Shown here piece after piece: positions 652 through 23,561 of a stretch of DNA of 64,000 nucleotides. A model generated the notes under the pieces. That model was given only the letters and a program-made list of their open reading frames with translations, had not been told where the DNA came from and made no database searches. The stretch comes from Coffea arabica. Taxonomy: Eukaryota; Streptophyta; Magnoliopsida; Gentianales; Rubiaceae. The stretch spans positions 7,938,501 to 8,002,500 of the forward strand of contig NC_092317.1 in assembly GCF_036785885.1 (NCBI RefSeq), written 5' to 3'. A program made the translations under genes and the position numbers. Each line of letters opens with the position of its first letter. The first letter of the stretch is position 1.

Positions 652-864
652 TGGAAGAGAAGGGTCTAGCATGATTGATAAGAGCCAGTCAGGATAGCCG
701 CAGGATGACGCCTAGAAACCAAGTTGAGGTTCCATATGATAATTACTACAAGATAGATATGTGGCAATGTTTGGCCTTTTCAAGAACCCTTGAATGGTTG
801 TAGGCAAGTCATCCTTGGCTACCAAACAAGACTCTTTATCTCCATACAAGACCTCTCTTCCTCT
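652..864 (-). ncRNA. MIR169: MIR169 precursor, locus 1 (type A)
   Basis: The minus strand folds into a long hairpin. The mature miRNA is in the 5' arm (801-821, core AGCCAAGGAUGACUUGCC, beginning UA, ending UA). The star is in the 3' arm near 695-714. Pairing continues below the duplex to the base of the stem, ggaagagaggtctt against agacccttctcttcc. The family is known to guide cleavage of NF-YA (CBF-B/HAP2) transcripts, with roles in drought, nitrogen and flowering responses. The loop is short (about 85 nt) and its sequence differs from loci 4 and 7, although arms and mature sequence agree with them. Confidence 0.9.
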
Positions 865-921
865 CGTGTTGAAAAATGCACTTTCTTGACTGGAATGGTG
901 AAATTTCTATGATGAAAAGAG

Positions 922-1060
922 CTTTAAATAGACAACATTAGATTCCAACTATCACATGATGGAGTTTCTTTTTGCCCCCCTCCCCATAAGATTTAGCAGT
1001 CTTTTTAGAATTTTCTGTACATTAATTTTTGAAAAATTTTAGGGGCTGGGAATATATTCC
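922..1060 (-). promoter_or_regulatory. Promoter of MIR169 locus 1: TATA box and palindromic box
   Basis: On the minus strand TATTTAAAG (922-930) lies 101 bp upstream of the mature miRNA, fitting transcription start near the base of the hairpin. A perfect 12-bp palindrome GGAATATATTCC lies at 1049-1060, 228 bp upstream of the miRNA. The same pair of elements recurs at all other loci. Confidence 0.6.
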
Positions 1061-3239
1061 AGTTATTACCAGGGGCCTACCATATCCGTTAAGATTTATC
1101 CCATTTATTGTAGATTCACAATCGGATATTGACTTCACACTCATACAACACTAGCAGCAATTGGCCGGGAAACTTTGCAAGTGCTATATATCAATCCGGA
1201 CACAAATTTTGCAAGTGCTATCAAGCTGAACACAAATTTAATCAACATCAACAAGACAGCTTATATGTGTTATACTTTAAAGTGGTGTGTAAGATAAAAT
1301 TAAATCTTCAGTTAAGATTTTGTGCAATCTTATAATCTGCCATTATTTATGTCTTTGTTGGATTGATAAATATACACCTAATAACGTTGTAATGACATGT
1401 TATGTGCTAGACATAATGCACAAACAAGCGAGACTTGAGCCGAGTTCTTTACTTTTCATAGCATCAACCTAATTATTCACTTTTGCTATAGTAAGAAAGT
1501 CTCGTTTGAAAAAACAAATTAGCAGGGGAAAGGTGGGATTTTTGGAGCGGAGGAGGGGAAGGAGAAGAGAGATTTGAACCCAAAATCTTTAATTTTTGGG
1601 ATCTCAACCTTTAAAAGTTTCATTCATTTTCTTTACAATAATTTATTCTGAAGATATTTAGCATAATGATGCGAGAAAAAGAATTTTTCGATCTACAAGT
1701 GGAGGGATGGGTGGTTTTTTGATACTTAGACCACACTGTCTAGTGTCTTTCATATGAGCCTTAAGCATATCTATTTCCATTTGTGTCACATCTCACAATA
1801 CCATACCCTTGAGAATTTTGGCCTTTGTTTGGGAAAGAATCAGATAGAGAACAAATTTGAGAATATAAACTAAGAAGCACGTTTGAGGAATAGAAGTACA
1901 CAAGTGAGAAAATTTGGGCCAAGTGAAACAGGTTGACTCCCTCTCCATCACAATTCTCTTTAGGAACTCTCAATCAATATATTCCAGTATTACGGCAATA
2001 TATGCCACATGTGTAAGTAGCTTCACTTTGAAACGATGTCAATGCTCTCAATTATGTACATTCCTTTTTTTTTCCCGTTCCTTTTTTCTCCTATTTGACT
2101 TTTAGAATTCAATTCTTTGGTGCGAAGATAGGAGAAAAGCATCTTTGCGACTCAACACGATATCTAGATTGTCAACCCTTCACTTGGCTCATTAAAAGGA
2201 AAAGTACAATTGAATTCTTTTTTTTTTTTTTTGATAATTAATGCTCTTCTGAATATAAAAGGTTCAAGTGTATATAATGGCATGCATATGGGGTCTATTG
2301 GGCTTTGAAGTACTTGCAATATTATCCATTTTTTAGGTAGAGGAAAAGGCTTTTTTTACAGGTGCCCAATGAACACTGAATAGTACACTTAGATCACATC
2401 TAATTTATGATATGAATTCACATACTAACAGTTATTATATTATCTTATATTTATATACTTTTTTTCTAATTAACATTACTATTCTAAACTATGAACACCT
2501 GAAGTCCATCTATTGGGTATTCGTTAGATAGACCCAGAGGAAAATGCCAGCTACATTATGAATAGTCTTCATTCACAATTTTTTTTTTTGTCTCTTTCTA
2601 TCTTCAAACACAAATGACAAAATTTGTGAAAAATGCGAACTTGGAATTTGATCTTCCATTTCTTGGAAAATAGTTCTAATATTTAATATGAGAAAAAACT
2701 TTAATCACCATGCTCTGTGTCGTGTAATGCGTGAATTTGGGGGTTCTTTTGCAAGGTTTCGGCCCCAATATTTTTGACATTTGGACTACTTTTTGGACCA
2801 AATTGAGAACCAATGCAAAATAAGAAATTAAATTAGAGGTGTACCCATCCACTAGGACATGCTTCTAGAATATCGCAGCTGACATGAAATCAAGTTTACA
2901 ATCGAAGAAAATTCTCTCAATATATTCCAAGAAATTTTGGGTTTAACCTACACAGTGAAGTTTAAAAACGTACAAGGTACAAATAATTCCTTGTTAATTG
3001 AGCATTTACTTACAATTTAACTCCAAATTTTTTTTCTCTTTTAGTGATTCAGTCAATTTATCAGCTTTTTTCTTTCTGGCACGAGATTTGTGTACAAACT
3101 CCGAAATGTTCAGAAAATGTGTCTAACGTTCAATTCTATGATGTTTCTAATTTTTTTAAAACATTTCCAAAATCAATTCACTACTGAAAATTTGTCTACG
3201 CAAACATTCTACTATTGCCTCACGACATTATCTTTGCTT

Positions 3240-3262
3240 TCCTTTTTTTTTTTTTTTTTTTG
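3240..3262. repeat. Poly-T tract
   Basis: A homopolymer run of T inside block 1, just left of a TA-rich and GA/GT/TA microsatellite cluster. Confidence 0.7.
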
Positions 3263-3409
3263 TAGTGTCTGTGAGTTATTTCTTTGTAAATATATATATC
3301 TTTGCTTTCCTATATATATCTTTTACAATATAATATATATATCTTTGCTTTCCTATATATATATTGTATTCATTGTAAACAGATTTCTTGCTTGAAATTC
3401 TGCTTGGTT

Positions 3410-3545
3410 AGGGGGAGAGAGAGAGAGAGTGTGTGTGTGTGTGTACAAATATGTGTGTATACAATATATATATACATATATATATATATATGCATATGCA
3501 TATATGTATATGCATATATGTATATGTATGTGTATGTGTGCTTTA
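3410..3545. repeat. Compound microsatellite (GA)n-(GT)n-(TA)n
   Basis: Runs of gagaga, then gtgtgt, then tatata/tgcata follow each other directly. The short reading frames here are products of the repeat. The sister region in block 2 (about 14,130-14,300) lacks it, so it expanded after the duplication. Confidence 0.9.
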
Positions 3546-4241
3546 AAGTTTATATGTTTGTTATGTTAAGGCAAACATAACAAACGTTAACAGTGGACAA
3601 TACCATGCATCTAAAAATAATTAAAATTTTGAATAATGTAAATAACGTTAAAAAGAAAAACTTTGTGTACACCATAGTGAAGTAAATTTCTAAATTTTTT
3701 GATAGCTACTATAATAATGTGTTCATTCTTCTCATTGTATTTTCAAAAGCTACATATTAACCGTTAGCGTTATTTTATAAGTTCTACTTTTGTCTCATAA
3801 ATAAAAAAGTCTCATAAGAGTTTAGTGTTCAAGCTTGCTACATTAATCTTCAAACTAACTTGGAATTTCAGTTTAAGCATTAATTGGCTTAAAAGCTATT
3901 ATCAAAACCGAACGGAATTTCTTGAAACATACAAATAGTGGCAGACTCAAAACCTTATGGGAGATAGAGGCAATTGTAATTTCCATAACTTCATTGCGGT
4001 TTATGCGATTTATGTATCCCATATGTTTATATTCTCATAAATAGAAGAATTCATATATACACGTAACCATGAAATTATACATAGTACTATACAATTAGAT
4101 AAAAAAAAAAAAAAAAAAGAAGAAAGAATAAAAAGAATTCTGCATTCAGCATCGGGCTAGTTCATGATAAAGATTAATGACATCCAGAAAACCTTCTTCC
4201 GCATCGTTCCGACCGACTTCGACCGCCGTTCGAATTAAAGT

Positions 4242-4459
4242 TGGAAGAGAAGGTCTAGGATGATTGACAAGAGTCAGTCAGGTCAACCAAGGATGCTGCC
4301 GAAGAACCACTTTTTTTTTTTTTTTTAAAGGTAATTGTTAGCCACCACGATCGAAATGCAAGAAATATTGTAACACATTCTGAGCCGAGTGGACTTAGGC
4401 AGGTCATCCTTGGCTAACCCACGAGATTCTTTATCTTCATACAAGACCTCCCTTCCTCT
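4242..4459 (-). ncRNA. MIR169: MIR169 precursor, locus 2 (type B)
   Basis: The mature miRNA is at 4396-4416 in the 5' arm on the minus strand, core AGCCAAGGAUGACCUGCC: U15 of locus 1 is C here. The star region is near 4284-4300 and reads ggcagcatccttggtt on the minus strand, pairing with nearly the whole miRNA. The stem base is gaggaagggaggtctt against agaccttctcttcc. A poly-T tract (4311-4326) sits in the loop. It is the sister of locus 5. Confidence 0.88.
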
Positions 4460-4521
4460 AGTTCTAAATCCTGCTATTGATCGATGCTTAGAAGATAGAA
4501 ATAATGCTAAGATAAATGTGG

Positions 4522-4644
4522 CTATTTATAGGCAATAAGGAGGCAAAAAGATTAGATCCGCGTAAGGAGCTTTCTTGACACTGTGAACCCCAAAATTCTA
4601 TCTTGTGATTTTTTATCCCCATTTGCTTGAGATGAATATATTCC
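4522..4644 (-). promoter_or_regulatory. Promoter of MIR169 locus 2
   Basis: TATAAATAG (4522-4530, minus) lies 106 bp upstream of the miRNA. The palindromic box (4633-4644) is one base off, TGAATATATTCC when read on the plus strand. Beyond it, an agattgg…/…tgaatcc block is shared with loci 3, 5 and 6. Confidence 0.6.
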
Positions 4645-7626
4645 CCATTGTTTAAGGGGAGAACCATATCCAAATTGTGAAATGAGATTGGGAAGACGAG
4701 GTGGAAAAGCAGCATGTTTATCCCAACTTGTACTGAATCCCATTTTTGCGCATTTATGCCCCATTTTTTTTGTCACTGTTAATTGGGAAATTAATCACTC
4801 AAAATTTCTAAATTTCATTGAACGTTCGGATATGGCTACTCCCTTTTGAATATAACTGGTTGACTGATCCCAGTCTGAACTCTCATTAGGATAAGTTGCA
4901 GTACCACATTACCTTAATGTTAGTCTCACACAGTCTTAAGTTGCAATGCACTGTATATGTATATTGATGCAGTCGCACGATTTGTGGATTGTAGTATTCC
5001 AACAATTGGAGGAAGAAAAATGACTGTATGCGAGTTCAAATCTTCGTTTAATATAGTTATACGTTAGTATTTTTGACATTATTAGCGGAATAGTTTGTCA
5101 TATCATTGTGTTGTAAGTATCCATAGTCATTTCATTAAATATTGTGTCATAACAATCTTATAAAAAAAAACAGAAACAAAATAACAAACTGTTGGGGGTT
5201 TTTTTTTTCCTTTTGATTGTTCAATCTTATATTCTTATCCATAAAGCCACCATCATCCCAGTTAGAGCCCATGCATGTACGGATGGTTGACTTTCTGATC
5301 TGTGTACTTCTTGCTACACTTCTGCTCTGACAGTCGAAATTTGATTCTCATGCTGATTAATATTCCCCAAGCAATCGAATTCCATCACAAATGACCACTT
5401 GAATAAAAATGTTAATGCTCCAAGTACCAAGCAAACTTTGCTTAGCATTATTTTGCTTCATTTTCAAGCATCTAACTCTTGGCTTTGCACTTTGTCATTA
5501 GCTGTTTTTGCCAACAAAGATGTTCTCGTGGGCTCGAATGGACATGGAAGCTGATGCAGAACATTCAAGAACTAAAATCTAGCACTAATCTGCTCTGAAA
5601 ATTATCGGCTAAAGAGATAAAAATCAAGTGCAAATGAATAAGGATGGATACCATGTGATGCAAAATTTTAGTGACTCTCTCTGACATTTATTAATACAAA
5701 TATAGAACGACCTCTCCTCAAGTTTTACATAGCGTCGTTATGTTATCCCATTTTCAATTGTTATCAAAATGTTTATTTTCTCTAAAATATTAATATGCCA
5801 TTCGGAGGGTAGTGTTGGAAGTTCAGTCTAAACTTGGAAACAAAATAAAGTGCATGCACTTGTGAAAACCCAAAATCAGTGTTACATCATCCGCCAAAAA
5901 TGAGTTATTACATAAGTGATTTTAACATTCTTGCAATACCTGGAAAAGGGACAAAAAAAATGTCTAACTTTTAATATGTGAAACCACAGAAACATGTTAA
6001 TTCTGATATGTATGATCATCCTCATATTAATACCTTAGGCGGGTACATTTAGACGTACGTACTAATGCAAAAATCGAAGCTGTTTTGTGTGTGTTTATAT
6101 GTGTGTGTGTCTACATCTAGTAGCCACAAATTTGCACCCTAGATAATGCAGTTTTGATCAATGCTTGGGCTGATAATTCAGTAGTTGGATGTCTGGTTCT
6201 TGAGGTAGAATTTCACAACCTCAATTCCTAATGTTCTATCTTCCCAAAAAAGTTGGAAAAAATAATGCCTGTGACTATTAGATATGTGAATGGTTGAGCT
6301 GATAGCCAAAAGCATAGCCATATATTTTTTGCATGGCTGCGATTCTGTTAAGTTTAATTACTTCTCTATAAAAGCAGCAAGAACACATCTAAAGAGCTGT
6401 GGAGTTTCCATCTTGATGAAGTGAGTTGGTGGTATATTTTCAACGTATTTAGGACAGCTTTTAATTTCGAGAAATTATAGAACCATGAGCTTCAAAGTTA
6501 ATTTTGTTATGTGCACTTAACAATTGCTTCTTTTTCTTTTTTACCCAAAAAAAAAAAAATTGTAAGATTCTACCATAACAGTTGAAATGAAAATACTAAT
6601 ATCAAATGAACTCGCAGGTTGGTTAAGAATAAGAAGGGCAATAATTGATGACAGAAACGTAATGATGTTCAAATGATTTCTTTGTTTTTTCCCCGTCAAG
6701 CTAGCTAGTGTGATCGATGGCTCCCTAACCAACTAATATTACAATATTCGTTTAATAAGGATTTGTTTACATATATCCATATCTCCTATCTTTCAGTTAA
6801 GAGTCGAAGAAAGTGAAAGATGAAGGCACAGAACTTCAAGCAGTGTTGTTGATGTCGGACAAATTTGGCCAATTCTGCAGTAACTAGGTCCCAGATGTGG
6901 CCTAAAAGTAGTGATTTCAACCAAGATCGTCGATGAACTAGTCAAGAACCGGATGAGCAATCTAAACCAGCGTTGGACTGGATATACACTCTTTTTTTTT
7001 TTGGTTTTTTTCTTTTTTTTCCCCAAAAAAAAAAAGGGATTTTGAGCTTTTGGAACCTAATGAAGCCACTGGTTCAAGGAGTCACTTGGCTGGCTCCTTT
7101 CTTCTTCAAAGAACATTTGCTTGAAGCTCTTCACAACTGCACATTCTCTATCAATCCCACCTTTCAATTAAGTTCGATCAGATGTTTGGTAGTTAAAAAA
7201 AGAGTTGAACCTCTATTATACAACATTTTGCTGGCAAATGTTAGGAAAAATTGCAACTTTTTACCGTGTAAAATTGCTAACTTGAAATTTTATTACGAAA
7301 AATTCTTAATTACAAGCATTTTGCTCAATGAAGAATTTTTGCAGCAAAAATTGCGCATCAAATGAATAATATTAGACATCACTAATGCTCCAAATATAAC
7401 ATAAATTGTTATATTACTCAAAAAAAAAAACATAAGTTGTTGTATTTATATGTTCTCTCTCTCAACACACACAGGCGCAAAAACACATAAACGTTTGTGT
7501 ACCTTCATAAGCATTTTTGTGAAAACAGCAACTTCAACATCCAAAATTTGTTTCTTAAACAAACAGAAAAACAAGACCTCTGTACAACTCCAAGCCTTCT
7601 GTTTCACCAAGATTGTCTTCCCAAAC

Positions 7627-7989
7627 ATGGAAGAGAAAGTCTAGCATGATTGATAAGAGCCAATCTGAAGCCTTGGATGACCTGCCTAAAAATAACCTTA
7701 GGACTCCTAACCAATCGTTTTTGTTACATTTGGCTTAAGTCAATTATGTTACATTCGGCTTGTAAGACTGCTAAAGTACTAAAACATGTTTTATACACAA
7801 TTTTGTACTAAAATGCAACCTTATCACATATCCAAATGTTTGTGAAGATATAGACTAAAATTTACCCCAAAAAAAAAGAAAAGAAAAGAAAAATCATTTG
7901 AAGAAGGCAAACCCTCGAGTGGATTTAGGCAGGTCATCCTTGGCTATCAAACAAGACTCTTTATCTCCATACAAGACCTCTCTCCCTCT
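7627..7989 (-). ncRNA. MIR169: MIR169 precursor, locus 3 (type C)
   Basis: The mature miRNA is at 7926-7946, minus strand, core AGCCAAGGAUGACCUGCC, identical to locus 2. The star is near 7668-7688 and has a one-base change that opens a small internal mismatch beside the ccaagg core. The loop is long, about 235 nt, which is tolerated in plant precursors. The stem base is gagggagagaggtctt against agactttctcttccat. It is the sister of locus 6. Confidence 0.87.
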
Positions 7990-8038
7990 CATTTCAAGCA
8001 CTGCACTTATGCTTAAAGTAGCAGCACAATACAACTGG

Positions 8039-8210
8039 CTATATATAGGGGAGAGGAGGAAAAGAGATTAGATCCGAAATGCCGCACGCATATGGAGTTA
8101 ACTTGGCCCCATAATTATTGACACATTTTCAGCATATTCTTTGCTTTCAGACCTCGTACCACAGTTGACATTAATGCTATCAGCCAATTATGCATGAGGG
8201 AATAGATTCC
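8039..8210 (-). promoter_or_regulatory. Promoter of MIR169 locus 3
   Basis: CTATATATAG (8039-8048) is a symmetrical TATA box 93 bp upstream of the miRNA. The palindromic box at 8199-8210 has one change (GGAATAGATTCC). Between them lies a cggatctaat element (about 8,073-8,082) also found upstream of loci 2, 5 (one base changed) and 6. Confidence 0.6.
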
Positions 8211-8513
8211 ACTAAGCGGTAGGGACCAATCATACCCAGTCCATATCTGGATTTGAGATTGGAAAAATAGGGTCTAAAAGCCACAAGATCAATCCAACTT
8301 GTGCTGAATCTTAAGTCCATGCAAGAGCTAAGCCTGGTGTTCTTTAGTAGTAAATCTTTCATGGTAATTAAATTGGTTAAAATGTCGTGCAGAGGTGGGA
8401 AAAAGTTACCCGTGGACTGATATCCAGCAAATTACTGGTCATACATACCAAATTATTATTAATAAGTCTCTTTGGCTTGCAAATTTTGGTCTCATCCAAA
8501 AAAGAACTCACCT

Positions 8514-8758
8514 GTGCCACTATATTGTGGGATAAGAGGTCAATGGTTTAAATCTTACCTTACCTCCTATCAATGTGCAACTATATACGTGACTTCTTCT
8601 AAATCTATACGGGTGCGTGGTGCACCCGTATGATCTGATAGTGGTTCAGTTCTCATTGATTTTCTCGATTTAGTTGGGCCACCCCCTAGAGTAAGTTAGA
8701 GTGAGAGTAGGAGTAGATTAGACTAGATGTGCCGTTATCGAAAAAAAAAAAAAAAAAA
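8514..8758 (+). mobile_element. Probable SINE-like retroelement with poly-A tail
   Basis: The element ends in an 18-base A run (8740-8757) after the characteristic stretch …ctagatgtgccgttatcg. A possible RNA polymerase III B-box (ggtttaaatctta) lies near 8,550. Imperfect direct repeats aactcacctg/cactcgcctg flank it. A 10-bp perfect hairpin (atacgggtgc … gcacccgtat, 8607-8631) lies in its body. The corresponding place in block 2 lacks it. Assignment as SINE rather than a truncated LINE tail is inference. Confidence 0.45.
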
Positions 8759-9718
8759 CACTCGCCTGAACAAAATTATCCGAAATGAGTTGGGCATGGT
8801 TGAGGTACTTGATGCTCTCTTTAGGTCATATAGAGCTTGCCTTTCGGTTGGATTGCTGAACAGGTCTCATGGAGATGGGCTATGGTTGGACCAGAACAAG
8901 GTGATTTCCCTCATCAACGAGACAGGAAGATTACGTAGGCATAATTGGTGAACAAGAAATAATTAACATAGTACAGGGGGTTATGTTCTTGTTTTTTGTT
9001 CGTAGGTAGGTACGAGATGCCATACCACTACCTTTTGCAAGGAAAGGAAAAGATAAATTAACAGAAAAGCTATTGATTGAAGGAATTTAGAGAATGGTTA
9101 TTGAATTTTGTATTCGAGAATTTTTTTCCATAATTAGGAAATTTGACTTGGACAGGAACTGAGTTACGTACTGATAGCCATGTTTAGGCGAGTGCATCTT
9201 TAATAAATTAGTCAAGCACATTTCCAACGCGATCAATTAGCGAAAAATGGATAATTATACTTGTCAAACTCCTTGGATTATGTTAAATTTCGTTTTAAGA
9301 GCTGGTGTAATTAACATCTTCAAAAATAATAAATCAGTTATTACCCCTAAGACGTTGTTCGATAGTTACAGTAATCAAATGACTGTGAAATCTCTTACTC
9401 GACTCTAACACCCTCTCATTTCCCTTTCCATATAAGGTTTAACCTCTCTATTAAAAAAAGATTAATAACTGAATTTGACTTCAATACAATTTTCAAGCTC
9501 GACGGCTAAAGGTTAAAAATACTTTGGATCGTGAAAGTTCAAAACCAATAAGTGATAGTAGATAAGAATAAGGCATTTTTTCCGCTTAAAGATAAATGGA
9601 AATATATAGACTTGAAACGTCTCTGGACTAGTTGAACTTTGCTTCTTCCGAGAACTTTGTTGAAGGTAGTCCTTCTTTTGTTTCTATCCGAGAGAATTAC
9701 AAGCTCAATTATAGTTTA

Positions 9719-10020
9719 AGGACCTGTTGGATAATCCAATTCAGTACTTAAATTTACTGGATTCAGAACTTAACATATTCAGACCGTTTGATAACAAAAT
9801 ATTGAACATCTGAATTAATTAAGTGACATTGAATTTTCTAGGCAAAACATGCTCTCAAAATTAAGTGATAACCTATTCACTTATCACTGAATGTGGTATG
9901 CGTTCAAATGTATTAAATTTGATATTTAACAATTCAATAACTTAATCGATTCACACTTTAGATTTCATATTTCAGTTTTCAAACTTCAATTTTATCAGGT
10001 TATTCAAGAATCAAATACCT
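9719..10020. mobile_element. MITE-like element, related copy at 31,039-31,340
   Basis: The sequence from ggacctgttggataatcc to …caggttattcaag resembles, in inverted orientation, the sequence at 31,039-31,340. Shared blocks are gaattttctaggca, aagtgataa…cacttat and ttaacaattcaataactta. Block 2 lacks the inserted stretch at its sister position (about 21,115). Target duplications are not clear. Confidence 0.5.
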
Positions 10021-11295
10021 TGTTATCACGGGTAAATCTTATTCAGGAAATAACAGTATAGCCTTAATAATTAAAAAAAATTTCTCGAAATGCTTATGAA
10101 TGGAAATTCATGTATGGAAGCCCATGCAGAATTATTCTACTTTGGTCATATTCCGCCATTCCAATGCTATCCTTTCTAGGGCCCAGTCAAGGAGCTTTTG
10201 GTCCGACAAGTCCGTATTGGCTTGGAATCTTTATTAAAAAAAAAAAAAAATCAACCATAAAAAGAGTATGGAAGTCTCAACTAGGGATAGTTTGCATAAA
10301 ATCCAGTAGATGGAAATTAAACTAAAAAGACTGTCATATAAAGTTGAGGGAAAAAACAAGAAATTCACCATGGTAGAAAGTTGAAGCTAAGATCGAGTTA
10401 AATAAGCAAAGACAGGGGTGATCAATATGTAAAATAACATCAAAATGCTTTGGGCAAATTTCCCTTTATAAGCAAATTAAGTGCATTAATCGCATTACAT
10501 ATTTGAAATTAACAAAAGAAAATTAATGAATGTTAGTTCCTTTTTTTTCTTCTTTTTTTTTTTTTTTTGAATTCCCACCTCTCCCCACACCCTTCCCAAC
10601 CCGAACTGGAATGATAGCTCACCCTTGTATACAACCCAGTTTAGCTAAAGAATGCAATCTAGAGCAATGAAAAGCGATTGCTTACTTTTACAAAAACAAG
10701 ACAAGAGGAATGGAAAAAAAGCAAATTGTTTATGTATTCAGGTACTAGAAAACTAAATATGTACCAACTAATATACATGGGTGATAATAGTATTCTTCAA
10801 AAAAACAATTTCTTTATGCCAAACTTGTTTACTGAGTTAATTATGTGGCTCAACCCTACTAATCATGGCTTATTAATGCAGATATATACCTATTAATCAT
10901 GGATAATTAAGAAACCACTATATCATGCATGCATTGTCCATATTCTACTTTACGTGAGGGACGATTGCTTAATGCAGATATAACGGTTGCCCAGGAAAAT
11001 GACCAAAAAAAAAAAAAAAAAATGGTAGGCAGCCCCCAATTATCTCTTCTACTGGGCGACTGAAAAAGTTCTGGTATCTATACTCGTGGAGTTGTACCAA
11101 TTTAGCACACTTTGATTCTAGTGATACATGATATTGTGAAATTAATGGTGAAATGTTGACATTCATAACGCTTCAATTTCTCTACAGATTGAAAGACATT
11201 AGGTAAAACAATAAAATGAAAAGTGAGAAGTTGATTAATGAAAACCGAATTCACATAAGATGGTGCAGGTTGATGATACTTAAATTGTGCCAATT

Positions 11296-11550
11296 TGGAA
11301 GAGAAAGTCGAGCATGATCAATAAGAGCCAGTCAGGATAGCCAAAGGATGACGCCTAGAAACAAGCTTAGGGCTCCTAATTCAATCATTGGATCCTACAC
11401 TTGGATTCAGAGGGGCACAGCTAAAACAGTGAGATTGAGAAGTATATACTAACAAGAAAAAAAGGGCATTGAACCCTTGAGTGGATTTAGGCAAGTCATC
11501 CTTGGCTACCTAACAAGACTCTTGATGACCATTCAAGACATCTCTTCCAC
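11296..11550 (-). ncRNA. MIR169: MIR169 precursor, locus 4 (type A)
   Basis: The mature miRNA is at 11488-11508, minus strand, identical to loci 1 and 7. The star is near 11338-11357. The 5' arm is shortened at the base (tggaagagatgtctt) and pairs with cgactttctcttcca. The hairpin and its loop are almost identical to locus 7 over about 240 bp, with only a few differences. The surrounding spacer is clearly diverged, so these two copies look recently homogenised. Confidence 0.9.
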
Positions 11551-11599
11551 CCCATTTGAGCAATGCATTTCTGCTTACCAATGCTGAAGTATCAGATGG

Positions 11600-11787
11600 C
11601 TATTTATAGGCAATAAGGAGTTAAAAATATCATTACCAAAAGTAGCATGCATGGTGGTTCTCCATTAGTCGTCCTATAGGAATTGAAACATGTTCAGCAA
11701 TTGTATCTCTTTCTTATTTCTCTATTCGGCTGACCTACGTACACATTTTATCCACTTGTTACCATATGACATGGTGGAATATATTCC
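11600..11787 (-). promoter_or_regulatory. Promoter of MIR169 locus 4
   Basis: TATAAATAG (11600-11608) lies 92 bp upstream of the miRNA. The perfect palindrome GGAATATATTCC lies at 11776-11787, in the context catggtggaatatattcc shared with locus 7. Confidence 0.62.
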
Positions 11788-14700
11788 CATTTGTAGAGGG
11801 ACCAATCATATTTCTGGGGAATTAGGAATACAGAAAGGGCAAGGCAATAATAAGTTGGCAAAATCGGGCTGCAAAGCTCTTGGCCTGGGAATTTAACTTT
11901 GTTTTGAATCTGAAGTCGGTGAAAGATTTCGAGACTCAATCTTAAACAAAATTATTGGCTTAGGATTTAGGATAGTCTAGTAATTTGTTACTGTAAACTT
12001 GCCTGAAGATATAATCTTGATTTTGGACAGTGTCTCCGAATTCCATTTCTTCTCTTTTTCTGGCACAATAAAGATGTGACATACAGACTTAAGTCTGAAA
12101 TGATTTACCTTTGGATATCTAGGTGAATTTTAGATTGTGCTACTGACAATTAAGCAGAGATTAAGCTGATATAACCCTTTAACAAACATATGTTGATTGG
12201 GCCAGATGGTATTTTCTCATATACTATACAATTCAAATCAAAATTCATTATAAAGGTGACTCATTATCTACGTACATTAATTATTGTATATACGTGTTGT
12301 GTATTATTTGGGACTAAATCTCAATCCAATAATCGATTCACAAATTGATGCTGCAAGCCTGCAACTTGAGCCATCTAGAATTCCATTTATCCTAGTTTTC
12401 GGTCCTTCACTAAGAACCGTTCAGCAATACTTTTTTTACACAATCTATAGTGAAATAGTATGACTTTGTGGATATGACAAAACTTATGGATCCAAGCTGT
12501 CACTTCCAGCATGGTCAATCCAATTCCCCTTTGACATGCCTCGAAAAGTTTGACCCTACTTTGAAGGAGAACCCGGAAAGAAGAATAAATTGAGGGCTTG
12601 AAATGCTGATTATTAGGCAGGTTCATCATTCTAAAGAGACAAATTGATGCACCCTTGTACTGCAATATTCCTCCTGATTTTGTAAGTTCAGTATTCCCAC
12701 TTTCATCGAAGGAAATCTATGCCATATGTCCATTGTCCAATCAACAAGTAACAATGCCAATACGCTTTAAATCTCAATAATGACCAAAAGCTTCATCTAG
12801 CTTTGTTCTGTTTGACTTTTAATTATTCAATCCGTTGGGATTGAATACGTGATTCCAAGCTTCTCCATCAAAAAAGTGATGGAAGAGATGAATTTCCATC
12901 CCCTAATTTCTTGAATAAAAGTTGTATACTTTGGTTCTGTCATGGGTTCGCCAGGGACACAAGAATTCTCCATGGAGTTGCAACGTACCTTTGAGTTTAC
13001 CCTTGATTTGTAGTCCCACTGCATTATTGATGCGACTTGTTCATTAAGAATAGGTTTCCTCCTCTTCAGAAAGTTTTTGTTGGAAATTTTTATTTTTTTT
13101 TTTGCAGCGTCTGATAGGAATTGATTGAAAGAGACATAATATCCGGGACAACATGATTGAAACTCCAAACCTTTTTAGAAAAGTTTAGGTTGTTGGAGTA
13201 TCATATTATCCCAATGAGATGGTTCCAATAGCTTGTCTTGAATTAAAAAGGGATAATTTTAGAAACCTCTCCTAAAATTTCTAGCAATTTCACGAAGCTC
13301 CTTCAAGATTTTAAAACTATGCTCACCTCCTCTAATTTGACACTTTTAGTGACCAAACGTTAAAATAGGTCAAAAATTTAATGAATACCCTAAAATGCTC
13401 TCATCTAATAAAGTCTAATTTATTATTCTAAACAATTAATTGTAATTTAGCACAATTACAAAGAAATGAGTTTCAAGTATTTTGTGCCCGATATTTATTA
13501 TTTGATAATAAAATACAAAGATAAATTTCATTAGGATAAGCTTCTTTTAATAGTGCATTATTAAAGATAGAGATTCTTTTTAAGATGGAGAAAAAAGTGT
13601 CACCATAATTTTTTTTAAAGTTTGTGGATTGGTCAAGTGGTAGAACTATTATAGTTTATTAGTGATTTTGGCCCATTTATTTTTTATTTATTATTGAGTT
13701 TGATATCAAAAAAATAAATAAACAAATAAGAGCTGAAAAAGAATAAGAAGATATTTAAAGTTATCAAAAAAAAAATTACTATTTTGACATTTGATCATGA
13801 TGGAGGCTAGGGACTAATAATACTGGTGATTTTGCTGACAGAATATAAGAATAATGAAGAAGAAGAGAAATGGGAAAAAAATGTATAAAGCCCACCCTTT
13901 TTAATTACGCATACCAACTTCTTATGAAATTGGTACCAAGACATTACACATGCCCAATTTCTTTGTCTAATATATGTGTTTATTGGACAAATATATTCTC
14001 TAAATTGTAGATAGATCTAACATGCAATTCTATTATGTTCTTATATTGCTTAAGACATTTCCAAAATCACTTTTTTCCTTAAAATTTTTTCTCTGTTTTA
14101 GCAAAGATTCTGCTATTGCCCTTTGGCATTTAGTTATTTTTACCTTTCAAGTTTCCAGAAGTTCTTTATTTCTAGTTTCAGAAAGAAAATGTTATATCAT
14201 GAGTTTAAATGCAAACACATGTACCTCTTTAAAGTCTTGATTAAAGTTTTCTTAATACTAAAAAATTATTTTCGTTAAGAGCCCATCAAGGTGAAAATAT
14301 TATAATTACTTTCTCTATATTAATTATGAACAGATTTATACAATTATCCTTTTATCAATTATTCTAGAGTAACATTTTCTTTTCCATCAATTAGGACACA
14401 TATAACGAATATTAACCCTTTATTTGTTCAGTTTAAAAATTGGATAAATCTTATACACTGAGGAATCTAAATGCACGTCACATATGCAAAGAGATACGGG
14501 CATAGCATATGCAAAGTTTGATATTCAAATTCAAATTAAGATAACATGGCATATGTATAAACCTATCAACATATATTAATAACGTAGGAAAGATTAATTC
14601 TTAAAAATTACCTATGAATATCATTTCAATGGAATAGTGTAAATAACGTTTAGAAAACACTTTTTGGTACACCATCATGAACTATCTACAGTGAAAAAAA

Positions 14701-15115
14701 ATCGAATGATTAAATCTTTTATAAGTAACCGCAGGAATATGTACAATCTTCTCATTTTATTCATAAAAGTTACAGGTGTGAACGTTATTCCCCATGTTCT
14801 ACTTTTTACTCCTCATAGATTAGAGGCTTGTAGAAAAGTCTCTTAGGAGGCAAATATCTTACTGTTTAATCTAGCTTTTCTATTTAAACTAAGTTGAAAT
14901 TTCAGTTAAGCGTTGGCTTTAAAATTATGGGAGCCAAGTTCATCATTTGAAGGTTAAAAATTATACCCACGTACATATAAAATTGTAGAGTAAGAAGGTT
15001 AAGACAATTCTATATGCATCACACGGCTAAATTCTAATAAAATTGATGTCTTAAATTCCTGACATAACATCCATAAAGCCTTCTTCCGAAGCACCCCTGA
15101 TTTCTGACCAACCAT

Positions 15116-15322
15116 GGGAAGAGAAGGTCTAGGATGATTGACAAGAGTCTATCAGGTTAAGCCAAGGCAAGGATGACACCTAAGATCCAATTTTATAAGG
15201 TAATTAGACACTTCGAAATGCAAGAAATGAAGCAGGTACATTTTTAGCCGAGTGGGTTTAGGCCAGTCATCCTTGGCTTACCAGCATGATTCTTTATCTT
15301 CATACAAGACCTTCCTTCCTCT
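15116..15322 (-). ncRNA. MIR169: MIR169 precursor, locus 5 (type B, variant mature sequence)
   Basis: The mature region is at 15259-15279, minus strand, core AGCCAAGGAUGACUGGCC, starting AA rather than UA, so the 5' end and register are uncertain by one base. The star arm (15158-15183) contains ccaaggcaagg, a small duplication that bulges the duplex. The stem base, gaggaaggaaggtctt against agaccttctcttcc, is intact. It is the sister of locus 2 and may be a weakly processed or decaying copy. Confidence 0.8.
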
Positions 15323-15371
15323 ATTTCCAAATGATGCTTAGAAGTTAGAAATAATGCTAAGATAGAAGTGG

Positions 15372-15522
15372 AAATTTATAGGCAATAAGAAGTGAAAGAG
15401 ATGAGATCCGAGAATCCACACAAGGAGCCCTCTTGGCTCCATAACCAGAAAATTTTTATCTCTTATGGTTTTCAAAATTTTCTTGTATAATTATCCCCAT
15501 ATGCATGGGATGAATATGTGCC
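15372..15522 (-). promoter_or_regulatory. Promoter of MIR169 locus 5
   Basis: TATAAATTT (15372-15380) lies 93 bp upstream of the miRNA. The palindromic box at 15511-15522 is degenerate (tgaatatgtgcc on the plus strand), the poorest match of the seven. Confidence 0.5.
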
Positions 15523-16656
15523 CGCTCTTGAAAGGAAGAACCATGTCCAGTTGCGGTTCCAGATTGGAAAAACTTGGTGGGAAAGCAACATATATATACT
15601 ACTTTATTTGTTCCAACTTGGTTGAATCCCATTCTTGCGCATTATAAAAAGACTATCCAAGAAAAATACTTTATAACAAAAGGGAAAAAAAGAAGCCAAG
15701 TTTGATTAGTTATAGAAGTTGAGAAATAAAATAACAAATTGTGGGATGTTGTTTTTGCTCAATTTATCTATCTATAAATCCATCAATGTAACAGTTAGAG
15801 CCTATAGATAATAGATGGTTGACATTCTGATCTGTCGACTTCTATCTGGTTTTCTGCTTTGACATTCGAAATTTTATTCTCATATATGTTGATCAATATT
15901 CCCCAAGCAATCAAAATCCATCACAAATGTCCACTTGACTTAAAATGTCAATGCTCCAAGTAGTAAGCAAACATTGGTTAGTATTATTTTGCTTCACTTT
16001 CAAGCCTTCAACTCTTGGCTTTGAACTAATTCGGTACCGGTTTTGCCAATACATATGTCCACATCGATCGGCATGGACGCTGATGTAGAACATCCAAGAA
16101 CTAAATTTTAGCACTAATCTGTTCCTGTAATTATCAGCTAAATACCCACCACCAAAAAAAAAATTGCAAATGAATATGGATACCATATTACCTTGTGATG
16201 GAAGCTTCTTAGGACTCTCTTGACGTTCATTACAAGGAACTCTTGGGCTTTTGAAGATATAGTATTCCCTTCTCAAGTTTTACATCAGATCTTTTGTCAT
16301 TTGCTATCAAAATGTTTGTTTTCTGTAAAGCATTAACATGGAATTTGGAGAGGTAATGGATCCAGGGAAACCAGGAGGGGCCCTCCCCTTTTCCAGTTTT
16401 TATTCCTTTTAAAATTAGAAATTTTTAGAGCATTCTTTATATATTTAAAGTTTCACCCCCACAAAAACTTAAAAATATTTTTTGTTATGCATAAAAAGTT
16501 TAGGTATACTCTCTCGAGATGAATTTTGCGGCTCTGTCTATAATTCGGAGTGCAGTGCACTAGAAGTTCAATCCAATATTTTGAAATAAATTAAAAGCCG
16601 ATGGTGTTATGACAACCCAAAATGAGTGTTATATCATCAACCAAAAGTGACTTACA

Positions 16657-16846
16657 TCCCGTTTGGCATTGTAGTATCTTATAAAAAAGCACTTCTAATA
16701 CAAGTTTTTTGTAACAAAATTACTTTTAAGATAACATAAACTGGACTCCTTAAATTACGAGAAATTAGTTATCAAACACCCTAAAAGTGCTTTTAGTATT
16801 TAAAAGCATTTTTATTTTTATAAATGCACCGCAGCCCCAAACGGAA
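16657..16846. mobile_element. MITE private to block 2
   Basis: The ends are inverted: cccgtttggcattgtagt at the left and …gcagccccaaacgg at the right (ccgtttgggg in reverse complement). Block 1 around 5,905-5,930 reads straight through the homologous flanks (gagttattacataagtgattttaacattc), so the site is empty there. This shows insertion after the block duplication. Superfamily is not certain; no clean target duplication was found. Confidence 0.6.
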
Positions 16847-18179
16847 TTTTAGTAGTCAGGATTAAATAACTACTTTTAACTTTCTTGCAGTACTTGGGAA
16901 AGGGACAAAAAATGTTTGACTTTAAAAATTGTGTTATGATTGATGTCATATAAATACTTTGGACGGATGCATTGGGGCGTGCTAATGCAGAATTGGGGTG
17001 CCTGTGCATGTCTAGTACGAGCATGGTTTTGTTTTGTACATGTTCTAGGTAGAAATTTACTCAACACGAAATGTTTTCTTTTCCATGCTGGCTCTTCTGT
17101 GTTAGGGATACTTCTCTATAAACTGTCCAATTAAGCAAGAACACCTGTAAAAAGCCGTGATGTATAAACCAAATTTTTAGATATTCGGGCCTCAATCTTG
17201 ATCAATAAACCAAATTTCATTTGCTTGTGTTATATGCACTATAAGCACTAACAATTGTTTAAAAAAAGAAAAAAAGAAATTTTCTGATTCTATCATAAGA
17301 GTGGAGATGAATATAATATCAAATGTAGTATGGTTAAAAATAATAGTAATGATTCATAACAGATATGTTGTGATGTTCAAATCTTTTCGTTCTATTCTTT
17401 TTTCCATCAGGTATGATGGGTCCCTAACCACCTAAGACTACATATTTATCTAATTAGGATTTATGTACATACTTTCATTTCACTTTCCTTTTTGTTAAAA
17501 GTCGAAGAAAATGAAATATGATTATGCACAGGAATTCAAGCAGACAAAATTGGCTGATCCTGCGGTAAACAGGCATCAGATGTGGTAGTAATTTCAACTA
17601 ATTAAGATCGTCAATGAACCAGACAAGAATCGGATAAGCAAATCAAAACCAGTTTTGGACTGGATGTACAATTTTTCTCAAGGGATTTTGAGCATTTTGA
17701 CCTGAATGGAACCGCCGGTTCAACCTGTGATTTGGCTGTTTCCTTTCTTCTACATGTTCATAAACATTTTCCTGAAGCTCTTCACATTCTTTATTCATCC
17801 CACCTTTTAATTAATTAAGTTCGATCAAATGTTTGGTGGTTAAGAAGGAGTCGAACTTCTGCTGTTAAAGATTTTTACTTGCATGATGTGTTAAAAAGAG
17901 AAACCAACTTTCTTGATTCACCAAAGAGAAGCAAGAAAGGTGTATCAAATGAATAATATTAGGAATCAGAAATGCCCCATTTATAACATAAGTTGTATCT
18001 ACATGTCATCTCTCTCGATACATGCAGGAGCCAAACACATCTATGTATTTGTGTGTACAATTTGTGAGACAACAGCAAGTTACATATCTAAGATATGCTT
18101 CTGAAATAAATGGCGAAGTAAGACCTGTCTGTACAATCAAGATATTGTCTTCCCAGTCAGGAATCCGCATGATCCATCC

Positions 18180-18620
18180 ATGGAAGAGAAAGCCTAGCAT
18201 GGTTGATAAGATCTGGTTTGAATAGCCAAGGATGACAGGCCCTAAAAGCCCCTTAGGACTCCTAACTTTTTTTTTTTTTTTTGGGGTAAGCCTTATGGCT
18301 CCTAATTGATTGCTAATATTACGTTTCGATTAAATTTATGTTCCGTTTCGGCTTTTTGTAGTTTTGTGGACAATTTAATACTCAGTTTGAGTACTAAAAG
18401 ACCATTAAACTCTGATTTATACGAAAATGATAACCTCCCTAGTCTCCTCGTCACACATCAAAAAATATATATATTTTTTTTTGAAGATATAACCAAAAGA
18501 AAAAAAAATTTTGAAAAAGGACACCTTGTCTTGCCAACCCAAACCCTTGAGTAAATTAGGCAAGTCATCCTTGGATATCAGACAAGGCTCTTTATCTCCA
18601 TACAAGACTTCTCTTCCTCT
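18180..18620 (-). ncRNA. MIR169: MIR169 precursor, locus 6 (type C, seed variant)
   Basis: The mature region is at 18557-18577, minus strand, core AUCCAAGGAUGACUUGCC: position 3 is U instead of G. That base lies in the 5' part that normally pairs with the NF-YA site. The star arm (18223-18244) still has the partner for G3 and so now mismatches. The loop is about 310 nt and holds a poly-T tract (18269-18284) and an A/T-rich insertion. The stem base is intact. It may be a degrading copy or one with altered target preference. Confidence 0.78.
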
Positions 18621-18669
18621 TTTTTCAAGCTCTGCACTCACCCTTGCAATAGTGGTATAATATAACTGA

Positions 18670-18819
18670 CTATATATATGGGCGAAAAGGCAAAGAAATT
18701 AGATCCGAAATGCCGCAAATTGAGCTCACTTGGCCCTGTCATTGTTTTATTTGGTTCAGTTTTCATAACACAGTTGACAATAATGCAATTATCCCATTGT
18801 GCATGGGGGAATATATTCC
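18670..18819 (-). promoter_or_regulatory. Promoter of MIR169 locus 6
   Basis: ATATATATAG (18670-18679) lies 93 bp upstream of the miRNA. The perfect palindrome GGAATATATTCC lies at 18808-18819, and the cggatctaat element lies between them, as at locus 3. Confidence 0.6.
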
Positions 18820-19979
18820 ACTCTGCAGCAGGTACAATCACATCCAGTCCACATCTGGATGTGAGATTGGAAAAATGGGGTCTAAAAGCCACATCGTCAA
18901 TCCAAACCCAACTCCTGCTGAATCGTCGAGTCTATTCAAGAAATAAGCCTGGTGATCTTTAGTTGTAAACCTTTCATGGTAAGTTGGTGAAAGTTTACTT
19001 ATCAAAAAAGAATAATGGTGAAGAATTTTTGCAGACATTGGAAAAACCCCTCAACTAATATCTTGCAAATAATCAGTGCCCAAAACTCTTATCTCAGACA
19101 ATTTACACCTTGGGAGGTATGAACCGTATTTGAATTACAAACATCAGTCAACTATTCCTTATTACTTAATGCCGCTAAACTATTTGCTTAATCCGTAAAC
19201 TAAACATCTTCTCATCCGATTTTCTAAATATCAGGCGATGGAGAGTAACAATTAAGAGTCATATGTGTCTTTCACTCTCAATACTATCAATGGTACGCCT
19301 TAATGCTACCCATGCATTCCAAATTGGTGAAAAATGCTAAAAATTCTGTTAATGTTTGGGTCGAAAATGTTGGTGTTGCCATCTTTAATGTGCACCAGTA
19401 ATTTTGTCCTGACCAAAAGTTGTGCACTGCCTAGGTAAAACGTACAATATATCTTGGGAGCAATAAAATAGATGTGAATTCTGTATGATGAAAAATATCA
19501 CTAGCTTTGGAGGCATTATGGAGTTATCTTGAAGTTGATTTTCTTGTGAATTACTTAAATCTATGATTGATTTTTTTTGCCCATCATTTGAATTACTGAA
19601 TAGGTCTCAAGGAGGCTATGGTTGGACCAGAGCAGTGTAATTCCCCTTACCAAAGAGAAAGGAAGATTACGTATGAATAATTGGAGAAACAAGAAGCAAC
19701 ATATATGGTATCAAGGGCGCTTATATACTTTTTTTGTACGTAGCTACGAGATGACACATCCCTACCTTTTACATGTAAAACATAAAGTGACAGCAGTTAT
19801 ATTGAAGGAATTGAGAGAGTGGTTGCAGAATTTGCTATAGTGAATCAGAATTCTACATGGGCAAAAACTTAGTTGGATTATTTTTTTTTTTCCTCAAATA
19901 TCAGTAGGTTGAGTGGAATTTACAGATAAAATTACGTTTATACAGTTTTTTAACTCGATTGATCCGCATGAAATTCAAA

Positions 19980-20477
19980 GGGCAAATTATACTTTACCGC
20001 CTGTAGTATAGCTAATTTTTACATTATCCTCCTATAGTTTTAAATAATCCCCGCTCATAGTTTGAATTAAAGTGTCAAGGTAACGAAAATAATCATTCGT
20101 AATGGAACCTATGAAAATATCAAAATTATCTTGTTTAAAAACTAAAATGGCTGAAATAATCAAAATATATAAACATAATATGCATGACACTCTAATCTCG
20201 TATGATTTTATATTTTACCATATAACTCCCTTATGATTTAGTACTTTACCATATAGCCCCTTATAATTTTCAATATATATACATAACCTCCCTGTGATTA
20301 ATAAATAATTTTCAAATTTACATAATGGTATTTTTGATATTTTAGTTGACTCTATTATAGATTGCAAATTCCGTTACTTTAATACAAACCATGAAAGGGT
20401 TATATATAACTTTTGAAACCATAAGAAGGTTATGTAAACAAACACTAAACCACAGGGGAGTAAAGTGTAATTTGCCC
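19980..20477. mobile_element. Terminal-inverted-repeat element private to block 2
   Basis: The left end gggcaaattatactttac and right end gtaaagtgtaatttgccc are inverted repeats with a short adjoining similarity (cctgtagt/cctgtggt). The interior is AT-rich without a transposase frame, so it is non-autonomous. Flanks share only AAA. Block 1 shows no counterpart near 9,200. Confidence 0.65.
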
Positions 20478-22559
20478 AAATCTAAAAGAATCAACAAAGT
20501 GCTGAAATATGAAGCGTAATACCATAGTGTAAGAACTCGTACAAAAACAAGTAGGTCTTACGCAATTCCATTTTAATAAATTAGTCATACCCGGTTTTAA
20601 TTTATGTAATATCTCCCAAAAAAAAAGGTAACTATACATGCGAAATAGCTTGGACAATGATATATTTCCATTACAAGCTGGGGTAAACTTGGCAAAAATA
20701 ATAAATAAGTTGACCTCAAATACAATTTTCGAACTCATTAAAGATGAGACATACTTTTTTTTTATATATAATCATCATAATTCCACTGTATCAAATGCAG
20801 ATTATTGGCAGAAATATATCAAACATGCAACAGACCAAAAGATCTTAAAAATTACCAGGTCTGAAAAATTAAAGATGACACATACTTGATCTGCATCAAC
20901 TTTGCTCATCCTACTCTTGGATGTTCAAAAGAGAACGAGTGATAGGAAAAAAAAAAGTCATTTTTCCCATTTAATGGCTGAATAAATGTAGCAAGATCAC
21001 TAAATCATTGCTTGGCAAATATGAATCTAGACTAGAAAAGTCAGGACTAGTTTAACTCTGCTAAGGCAGACTTTCTTATGTCTCTTTACAGGGAGAACAA
21101 AATTACAAGCCTAATTCAATTGAAGTCAGATTATTTGAGATTCGAACACAATAATAATAACCTTGTAGTGAAGGGTGGATCTTATTCAGAAAATAGAAGT
21201 GCTAGAAAAGTACAACCTCGAGATTTGATATATTTTTCTTGAAAAAAAAAAATTTTTTATTTTTTTTTGGTCAACCCCCACGATGCATGGAAATTCACGT
21301 ACCGAAGCTCATCCAGAATTATTCATAAACCATTTCGGATGGAATGCTTTCAGAACCCAGGAAATCAAATAGAATTCATAGAACCGTAAAACAGGATATG
21401 AAACTTCCATAATAGGATAGCTTGCATAAAACCTGTTGTTAATGGAAGTTAAACTCGAAAGAAACACACACACACACACACAGACAAAGAACTTGCAAGA
21501 CTATTCATATAAAGTTGGGAAACAGAGAGAGAGAGAGATTAACCATGTATGTAGAAAGTGTAGTATCCATTCTTTTCGTTTTAATTATGATCAAGTTAGA
21601 GCAGTAGTGATAGGAGTGATGAATATGTGAAATAAAATATATTTAAAAAAAAATTTCTGGACAAATATTCACTTGACAATAAACTAGAATTTTTATGAAC
21701 AATTTAGGAGTATTCAATGCATTACATGTTTCCATTTAAAAATGATATTAATTATCAAACTTTGAAATATTTGCAATCTAGAATAATATTATGTGATTCA
21801 TTTCATTAGGGATACACTTTTACGAAATAGATGATACAAAAATGCCAATTAAAATGCTCAATTTCTCGTTTGTTTGATGCAAGATGTTTGTAAGCAGGAG
21901 ATTCTGGATTCAAAACCTCCCACTTTATTCTTAAAAAAAAAAAATCTTCCTACCATACTTGTAAACAGATTTCTTTGTGTGGCTGAGCAAGTTATTCTTT
22001 TCAATAATATGACCAAAAAAATGGAAAACCCAAAACGAGCTCGCTGATATTCCCAGTTCCCTGACTTTGTCAACCCGTACAACCAGGCCCACTTTGGCAA
22101 TGGGTAATGATGCAGGCCCAAAGATAATCAAGAAGCCATTAGTCATCCATTTCTGGATTTTACTTTTTATTTATTTATTTATGCATGAAATATCGTTCAT
22201 GGCTTCATGCAAATATCCTGGTTGTCCAGGAAAATGTATGTTGAATTAAAAAATAAAACCTACTAAAAAATTTTTTTTAAAAAAAAAAAATAAAAATCAA
22301 CCCAATTAACTCTTTTTTTTTTTTTGGACGATCAAAAAAATTAAGGTATCTGTGCTCAGAGTTGGAGAAACTCTATGACAAACTTCAAATGGGACTTACC
22401 TCTGTTGTGAGCTGCAATTTATTAAACTGCAGAGCTTAACAGAAATTGAATGACATTAATTATGCGAAAAAGAAAAGAAAAGGATGGATTAAAACCTGAT
22501 TAATAAGAGCAGAATTTACATAAGAAGGTACTGGTTGCTCCAGAAGTTGCTTCCATCCA

Positions 22560-22815
22560 TGGAAGAGAAAGTCTAGCATGATCAATAAGAGCCAGTCAGG
22601 ATAGCCAAAGGATGACGCCTAGAAACAAGCTTAGGGCTCCTAATTCAATCATTGGATCCTACACTTGGATTCAGAGGGGCACAGCTAAAACAGTGAGATT
22701 GAGCAGTATATACTAACAAGAAAAAAAGGGCATTAAACCCTTGAGTTGGCTTTAGGCAAGTCATCCTTGGCTACCTAACAAGACTCTTGATGACCATACA
22801 AGACATCTCTTCCAC
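22560..22815 (-). ncRNA. MIR169: MIR169 precursor, locus 7 (type A)
   Basis: The mature miRNA is at 22753-22773, minus strand, identical to loci 1 and 4. The star is near 22602-22621. Arms and loop nearly duplicate locus 4, including the ggatcctacacttgg stretch in the loop. It is the only hairpin of truncated block 3 and the first of the array in the direction of transcription. Confidence 0.9.
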
Positions 22816-22853
22816 CCCATTTGAGCAATGCATTTCTGCTTACCAATGCTGAG

Positions 22854-23037
22854 GTATTTATAGGCAGAAATGAGCCAACAAGATCATTACCAAGCGCAGC
22901 ATGGTGGTTCGTTCCCCATTAGTCCAATTGACACTCGTTCAGCATTTGCATCTCCTTCTCATTTCTCAACATCTGTTGACCTAAAAACGTAATTTTCAAA
23001 ACCACTTGTCACCGTGCGACATGGTGGAATATATTCC
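22854..23037 (-). promoter_or_regulatory. Promoter of MIR169 locus 7
   Basis: TATAAATAC (22854-22862) lies 81 bp upstream of the miRNA. The perfect palindrome GGAATATATTCC lies at 23026-23037. Upstream sequence stays similar to that of locus 4 for more than 1 kb, apart from the retroelement at 23,376. Confidence 0.62.
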
Positions 23038-23375
23038 TCGTTTTAGAATAAGGACCAACTATGTTTCTGGGGCATACAGGAAAGGCTTGGCAAAATATTG
23101 GGTCAAACCTCTTGGCCTGGGAATCTGAAGTTCCTGTAAGATTCTGAGGTTCAAGCTTAAACAGAAATTTTGGCTTAGGAGGACTTTTCGTCACTATCTC
23201 TCAATTGTATCTCTACATTTCTTTTTCTTTTTTTTCTGACTCAGATAAAAAGTGGTATACAAACTTATAGTTCTTAGATGATTTACTTTTAGATATCTAT
23301 TTTAGTAATGATTTACCATTAGGTATCTATTTTAGTTTCAGATCGTGCAAGTGACAATTAAGCGGAGATTAAGCT

Positions 23376-23561
23376 TTTTTTTTTTTTGCGGCAAATCCTG
23401 TACACAGGGTGGGGATGCCAACCCCTAATTTTATTAACCAGTAGCATGAATACAAAGAGTTTAAGAAAGAAGTAGTATAAAGCCCAAGACGTAACTACCT
23501 AGCTAGATTACTCTTTGACAACTTACATGCGTACTGAACAAAACTCTCGTGCTAGATGGTA
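23376..23561 (-). mobile_element. 5'-truncated retroelement (LINE-like) with target duplication
   Basis: The insert starts with poly-T, that is, a poly-A tail on the minus strand preceded by tgtgtacaggatttgccgc. It is flanked by near-identical 17-bp direct repeats: taagcggagattaagct (23359-23375) and taagcggagattgagct (23562-23578). The sister sequence in block 2 near 12,150 has a single copy (taagcagagattaagct), the empty site. Length and tail suggest a severely truncated LINE end. The family is not identified. Confidence 0.7.

Follow-up and report, generated by a model that had tools for sequence, protein, structure and literature searches.

A tandem MIR169 array in Coffea arabica and its apparent growth by block duplication

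At one end of a 64,000-nucleotide stretch of the Coffea arabica genome (NC_092317.1, positions 7,938,501 to 8,002,500; hereafter, the window) lies an array of seven hairpins of the microRNA (miRNA) family MIR169, which we number 1 to 7 in the order of their coordinates. When the miR169 core was searched for with up to three mismatches, the 64 kb returned eight matches; 100 shuffled sequences gave 0.01 on average. Seven of these fall on the minus strand, one per hairpin, always on the 5′ arm and with one or two mismatches to the query core. Core search, folding and sequence profiles thus bear out the original prediction of seven minus-strand miR169 hairpins, both in their positions and in their assignment to MIR169 with the mature sequence on the 5′ arm. 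The eighth match, on the plus strand at 18223-18241, is the star arm of hairpin 6; since this arm, read antisense, closely matches miR169, the antisense hairpin could also yield a miR169-like RNA.

The array consists of seven genes of one family on a single strand, with consecutive gaps of 3.3–4.2 kb, compared with the limit of less than 10 kb that is applied to tandem clusters of homologous miRNAs in PMC2812943. Profiles of the 5′ arm, the 3′ arm and the promoter, made from the same seven loci and serving only to detect extra copies, found no eighth locus in the window at E values up to 1, and their plus-strand matches were the same seven hairpins read antisense. Further copies may lie to the left of the first base of the window.

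Given enough flanking sequence, all seven copies fold into a single hairpin with the mature sequence on the 5′ arm; because their loops are long, copies 3 and 6 adopt no such fold when shorter flanks are used. For six of the extended hairpins, none of 100 dinucleotide shuffles is as stable as the real sequence (z scores of −3.9 to −7.2), copy 2 (z = −3.9) only just surpassing the best of them. For copy 5, at least one shuffle is more stable (z = −2.4), which counts against an array that is intact throughout. The mature 21-mers of copies 1, 4 and 7 are identical, copies 2 and 3 share a C at position 15, copy 5 has A1 and G16, and copy 6 has U3. The star sequence is distinct in each copy apart from copies 4 and 7, which have it in common. 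A 5′ A is expected to alter Argonaute sorting. Rules for annotating plant miRNAs call for few mismatches, no large asymmetric bulge and a foldback of up to 300 nt; five of the seven copies are within them, including copy 3, whose 239-nt loop brings it near the length limit, and two fail, copy 5 through five unpaired bases in its star and copy 6 through its 315-nt loop.

The fit of each copy to NF-YA targets was scored on three soybean sites taken from PMC3481472. Copies 1, 4 and 7 fit best, with penalties of 2, 3 and 4 at the three sites, and copy 6 fits worst (4, 5 and 6); copies 2 and 3 have penalties of 3, 4 and 5, and copy 5 has 3, 3 and 4. From their sequences, copies 5 and 6 look as though they are decaying, a view to which the target fit of copy 5, equal to that of copy 1 at two of the three sites (3 and 4 points), runs counter.

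In each hairpin the stem extends 40 nt below the mature sequence, and across the seven copies 20 of 30 and 22 of 32 columns in the two arms of this outer stem are invariant, as are 17 of 21 in the mature sequence. Mean identity is 0.85 and 0.88 in the outer-stem arms, as opposed to 0.51 and 0.39 just outside. It is therefore unlikely, in our judgment, that most of these hairpins are dead and just one or two are expressed: although the degenerate appearance of copies 5 and 6 would fit such a reading, mature sequence and outer stem are conserved in all seven copies and the sequence just outside is not. Support from covariation is small, because pairs in the outer stem are mostly invariant or show one-sided changes, and some are broken in copies 4 and 7, 5 or 6.

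Both arms of the outer stem are also kept better than the star arm, whose region has a mean identity of 0.59 in an alignment affected by gaps. Processing of miR169 precursors proceeds stepwise from the base, and about two dicing steps would fit the 40-nt outer stem, which could be a source of a second phased small RNA. PMC3602245 mentions long Brassica MIR169 stems from which several small RNAs arise.

The strand on which the genes lie requires some discussion. Rfam models matched copies 4 and 7 above the gathering score on both strands, and MIR169_2 matched copies 1, 2, 4 and 7 on the minus strand with E values of 9.2e-12 to 2.9e-9, the matches to copies 1 and 2 being below the gathering score. 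Matches to copy 3 were weak (E = 0.027 on the plus strand and 0.11 on the minus strand), as were those to copy 5, and copy 6 had no Rfam match at E = 0.5. Two aspects of these results tell against a minus-strand assignment: At gathering level, copies 1 and 2 are placed on the plus strand only, and the plus-strand MIR169_5 matches to these copies outscore the minus-strand MIR169_2 matches in bits, although the minus-strand E values are better. E values favor the minus strand for copies 1, 2, 4, 5 and 7, but not for copy 3. We reject genes on the plus strand, both for these E values and since it is the minus strand that carries the canonical mature sequence and the TATA boxes; the plus-strand matches arise because the hairpins are nearly symmetric. 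Rfam matches resembling animal miRNAs at 3429-3542 were discarded, as they sit on an AT/GT simple repeat.

Table 1. Coordinates of the MIR169 hairpins, TATA boxes, duplicated blocks and near-identical tracts in the window (MFE, minimum free energy)
Feature	Position	Strand	Mature	Star	Remarks
MIR169 hairpin 1	653..861	-	801-821	~693-712	MFE z -6.5
MIR169 hairpin 2	4243..4456	-	4396-4416 (C15)	~4282-4300	MFE z -3.9
MIR169 hairpin 3	7629..7986	-	7926-7946 (C15)	~7666-7686	239-nt loop; MFE z -6.0
MIR169 hairpin 4	11297..11548	-	11488-11508	~11336-11355	MFE z -5.9
MIR169 hairpin 5, probably degenerate	15117..15319	-	15259-15279 (A1, G16)	~15157-15180	MFE z -2.4
MIR169 hairpin 6, probably degenerate	18182..18617	-	18557-18577 (U3)	~18221-18241	315-nt loop; MFE z -4.6
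MIR169 hairpin 7	22561..22813	-	22753-22773	~22600-22619	MFE z -7.2
TATA-like box of copy 1	924..930	-			TATTTAA, 109 nt upstream of mature
TATA box of copy 2	4525..4530	-			
TATA box of copy 3	8042..8047	-			
TATA box of copy 4	11603..11608	-			
TATA box of copy 5	15375..15380	-			
TATA box of copy 6	18673..18678	-			
TATA box of copy 7	22857..22862	-			
Duplicated block 1 (copies 2, 3, 4)	3122..13249				limits are the outermost matching segments, 23 collinear with block 2
Duplicated block 2 (copies 5, 6, 7)	14016..24577				limits are the outermost matching segments, 23 collinear with block 1
Putative homogenised tract, copy 4	11296..11587	-			covers stem and loop, plus the 5′ leader to a point just under the TATA box
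Putative homogenised tract, copy 7	22560..22852	-			287/293 columns identical to copy 4

Self-comparison of the window dismissed growth by repetition of one equal unit: outside the genes, homology occurs essentially only between two blocks, at about 3.1–13.2 kb and 14.0–24.6 kb, which are collinear over 23 segments, intergenic DNA included (segments were kept by an offset filter of 10.4–11.6 kb, and the observed offsets are 10.55–11.41 kb). About half of each block aligns, and 4,340 of 5,316 aligned bases are identical when the tract shared by copies 4 and 7, treated below, is included. This collinearity shows a duplication of the block containing copies 2, 3 and 4 into copies 5, 6 and 7, with copy 1 outside it; copy 1 matches the other copies over the gene only (650-886) and not over its flanks. 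The near-regular spacing noted in the original prediction is real, but its origin had been missed, as it results from the duplication of a three-gene block and not from seven equal units. Also overlooked were the degenerate look of copies 5 and 6 and the near-identity of the hairpins of copies 4 and 7 amid diverged sequence.

Trees are largely in line with this history: both pair copy 2 with copy 5 and copy 4 with copy 7 with support of 100/99 or better, and copy 1 groups with copies 4 and 7 in one of the two. What detracts from a duplication of the whole block is that neither tree supports grouping copy 3 with copy 6, which are paired by their flanks and by the long loops that they share. These loops (7687-7925, 239 nt, in copy 3; 18242-18556, 315 nt, in copy 6) may represent an insertion that predates the block duplication.

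Copies 4 and 7 resemble each other far more closely than the blocks in which they lie. Over a tract that extends from the end of the outer stem through the loop and stops shortly below the TATA box, they agree in 287 of 293 columns and differ only by five substitutions and a gap of one base. Identity is 70% (11215-11264) and 78% (11629-11687) in the closest 50-base windows lying entirely beyond this tract, and 376 overlapping 100-column windows outside it, all taken within aligned segments, have at most 88 identical columns, with a mean of 69.6. The loops differ in the same manner, with 123 of 126 positions identical between copies 4 and 7 versus 51 of 75 between copies 2 and 5 and 139 of 230 between copies 3 and 6. 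In 10,000 column shuffles, none reached the score of the tract. It speaks against the force of this last result that the best segments of the pairs 2/5 and 3/6 were likewise reached in none of 2,000 column shuffles: because stems are conserved, the shuffle test alone is no proof of conversion, and therefore only the size of the tract shared by copies 4 and 7 and the identity of their loops point to it.

Local gene conversion, as judged from these sequence comparisons, probably explains the tract best. Purifying selection on the entire precursor might produce a similar picture, and the fact that near-identity spans hairpin and leader, ending near the base of the outer stem and below the TATA box, would suit it; however, the loops of the pairs 2/5 and 3/6 are only 68% and 60% identical, such that loops are not generally constrained, and we regard selection without conversion as improbable. 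It is less probable still that the tract is an artefact of assembly: it is known from one assembly only, yet it contains five substitutions and a single-base gap.

If gene conversion did act on copies 4 and 7, a broader proposition, which we advance only tentatively, is that the hairpin unit is the unit of concerted evolution, with tandem MIR169 genes swapping the whole stem-loop. Such exchange could possibly account, with the same reserve, for the ends of the tract, close to the start site and to the base of the stem, as well as for the preservation of the mature sequence in copies 4 and 7 while the unconverted copies 5 and 6 decay. Exchange of this kind may be triggered by a long inverted repeat as such.

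The original prediction argued for independent transcription from a TATA box 81–106 bp upstream of every member. We find an exact TATAWA in six of the seven copies, with 89–114 nt between its first base and the 5′ end of the mature sequence downstream (the two ranges agree if the former takes a point about eight bases inside the box as its start), but copy 1 has only TATTTAA. As a control, TATAWA at 75–130 nt occurs in one of the seven plus-strand hairpin flanks, and a TATAWA lies in this range for roughly 10% of all minus-strand positions within the first 25 kb; the copies, being paralogues, are non-independent trials in such counts. Published starts of rice MIR169g and MIR169n precede the mature sequence by 85 and 131 nt (PMC2670843), which makes starts about 30 nt below the TATA boxes plausible. 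Because the boxes stand at a near-fixed distance and rice MIR169 genes have such start sites, independent transcription is the better guess, and a separate TATA promoter for each copy appears likely.

Weighing against separate promoters are the lack of a canonical TATAWA at copy 1, the plus-strand flank of which does have one, and the treatment of the rice pair miR169n-o, 3707 bp apart, for which a single promoter has been considered (PMC2812943, PMC2670843); wide spacing alone is therefore not decisive. We think it quite improbable, though, that one polycistronic primary transcript (pri-miRNA) runs across several hairpins and that the TATA boxes are leftovers of duplication. All seven copies lie on one strand without a long coding-looking frame between them, PMC2812943 describes rice MIR169n-o as perhaps sharing one promoter and being polycistronic, PMC2670843 treats the pair as one unit with one start site, and Arabidopsis i/j, k/l and m/n are handled as tandem units in PMC3485258, all of which would accord with a polycistron. 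Against this, the TATA box has been kept at 89–114 nt in six of seven copies, even though windows of the blocks average only 69.6 identical columns per 100.

A CCAAT box in the same orientation is present 275–343 nt upstream of the mature sequence in six of the seven copies (1, 2, 3, 5, 6 and 7), a range that was picked post hoc. As a feedback signal, CCAAT boxes are unconvincing, the seven 800-bp upstream stretches containing 21 of them (3.75/kb) compared with 2.7/kb in the window.

The absence of interleaved protein genes, part of the original prediction, holds for frames of at least 120 amino acids. Stop-to-stop frames of this size number two within 1–25 kb, and neither has a Pfam match at E = 0.1. 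When these frames were aligned to the other block, three of four pieces were less alike as protein (amino-acid identities of 40, 66 and 47%) than the same stretches are as DNA (68–72%), and two of those three contain a stop; the fourth piece is 11 residues long and 91% identical. Hidden coding genes between the hairpins were thus rejected for want of any sign among frames of at least 120 amino acids, shorter frames not having been examined and small exons being possible.

The clear protein gene nearest to the array encodes an ARM-repeat protein with a DUF7032 domain in one long frame (31983-33869); it is 82% identical to a protein of Cinchona calisaya and 77% identical to one of Oldenlandia corymbosa (both Rubiaceae), and two further database entries are 98% and 94% identical. 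An element of about 280 bp, probably a small transposable element, occurs in inverted copies at 9724-9997 and 31053-31333 that are 86% identical. Minus-strand frames at 47529-51762, perhaps exons of one gene, match Pfam Chromosome_seg (PF13889) and, weakly and below the cut-off, DUF4210 (PF13915). Plus-strand frames at 59061-61302 had no Pfam match; by eye, we take them to resemble a zinc-dependent alcohol dehydrogenase.

Considered together, a tandem MIR169 array that was block-duplicated, whose diverged copies most likely have their own promoters and whose copies 4 and 7 were converted, is in our view a highly probable account of the locus. Older duplications of single genes would have produced a run of at least four genes, after which the block of about 11 kb with copies 2, 3 and 4 was duplicated to give copies 5, 6 and 7. 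Each copy, most likely from its own TATA promoter, would then yield a short pri-miRNA folded as a single long hairpin, from which, as is usual for the family, DCL1 would release miR169 for the cleavage of NF-YA mRNA. The copies would since have diverged, with copies 1, 4 and 7 retaining the same mature sequence, copies 2 and 3 sharing a one-base variant, and copies 5 and 6 decaying; long after the blocks had been duplicated, local gene conversion would have homogenised the hairpins of copies 4 and 7. The layout of the array thus presents growth, in the block duplication, and decay, in copies 5 and 6, and perhaps the maintenance of uniformity, in the conversion of copies 4 and 7.

The array is of a known kind, tandem MIR169, here in seven copies. 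Clusters of MIR169 genes are indeed known in plants, as had been claimed, with tandem copies in Arabidopsis, soybean and rice, and the array is not as special as proposed, since Arabidopsis MIR169i-n is also a tandem array and rice miR169n/o a tandem pair. The Arabidopsis locus is called syntenic between monocots and dicots in PMC2812943, a survey whose largest cluster for Arabidopsis comprises six miRNAs within 5,522 bp. Unlike the coffee array, which consists of seven single genes 3–4 kb apart and a duplicated three-gene block, MIR169i-n is handled as three pairs, i/j, k/l and m/n (PMC3485258). Soybean has tandem MIR169 copies on chromosomes 9 and 15, for which birth and death of members has been proposed (PMC3481472), but these are paralogous loci on two chromosomes and the coffee array is one locus. 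In rice, miR169n and miR169o are 3707 bp apart and have stem-loops of more than 300 nt that resemble each other more closely than the sequences around them do, a pair that PMC2670843 reads as a recent tandem duplication of two genes, whereas coffee copies 4 and 7 form a near-identical pair 11.3 kb apart within an older duplication. By analogy, the near-identical rice stem-loops could have the same cause, namely conversion; and if conversion of hairpins were general, the similarity of tandem precursors would be unusable for dating duplications, as was done for rice miR169n/o.

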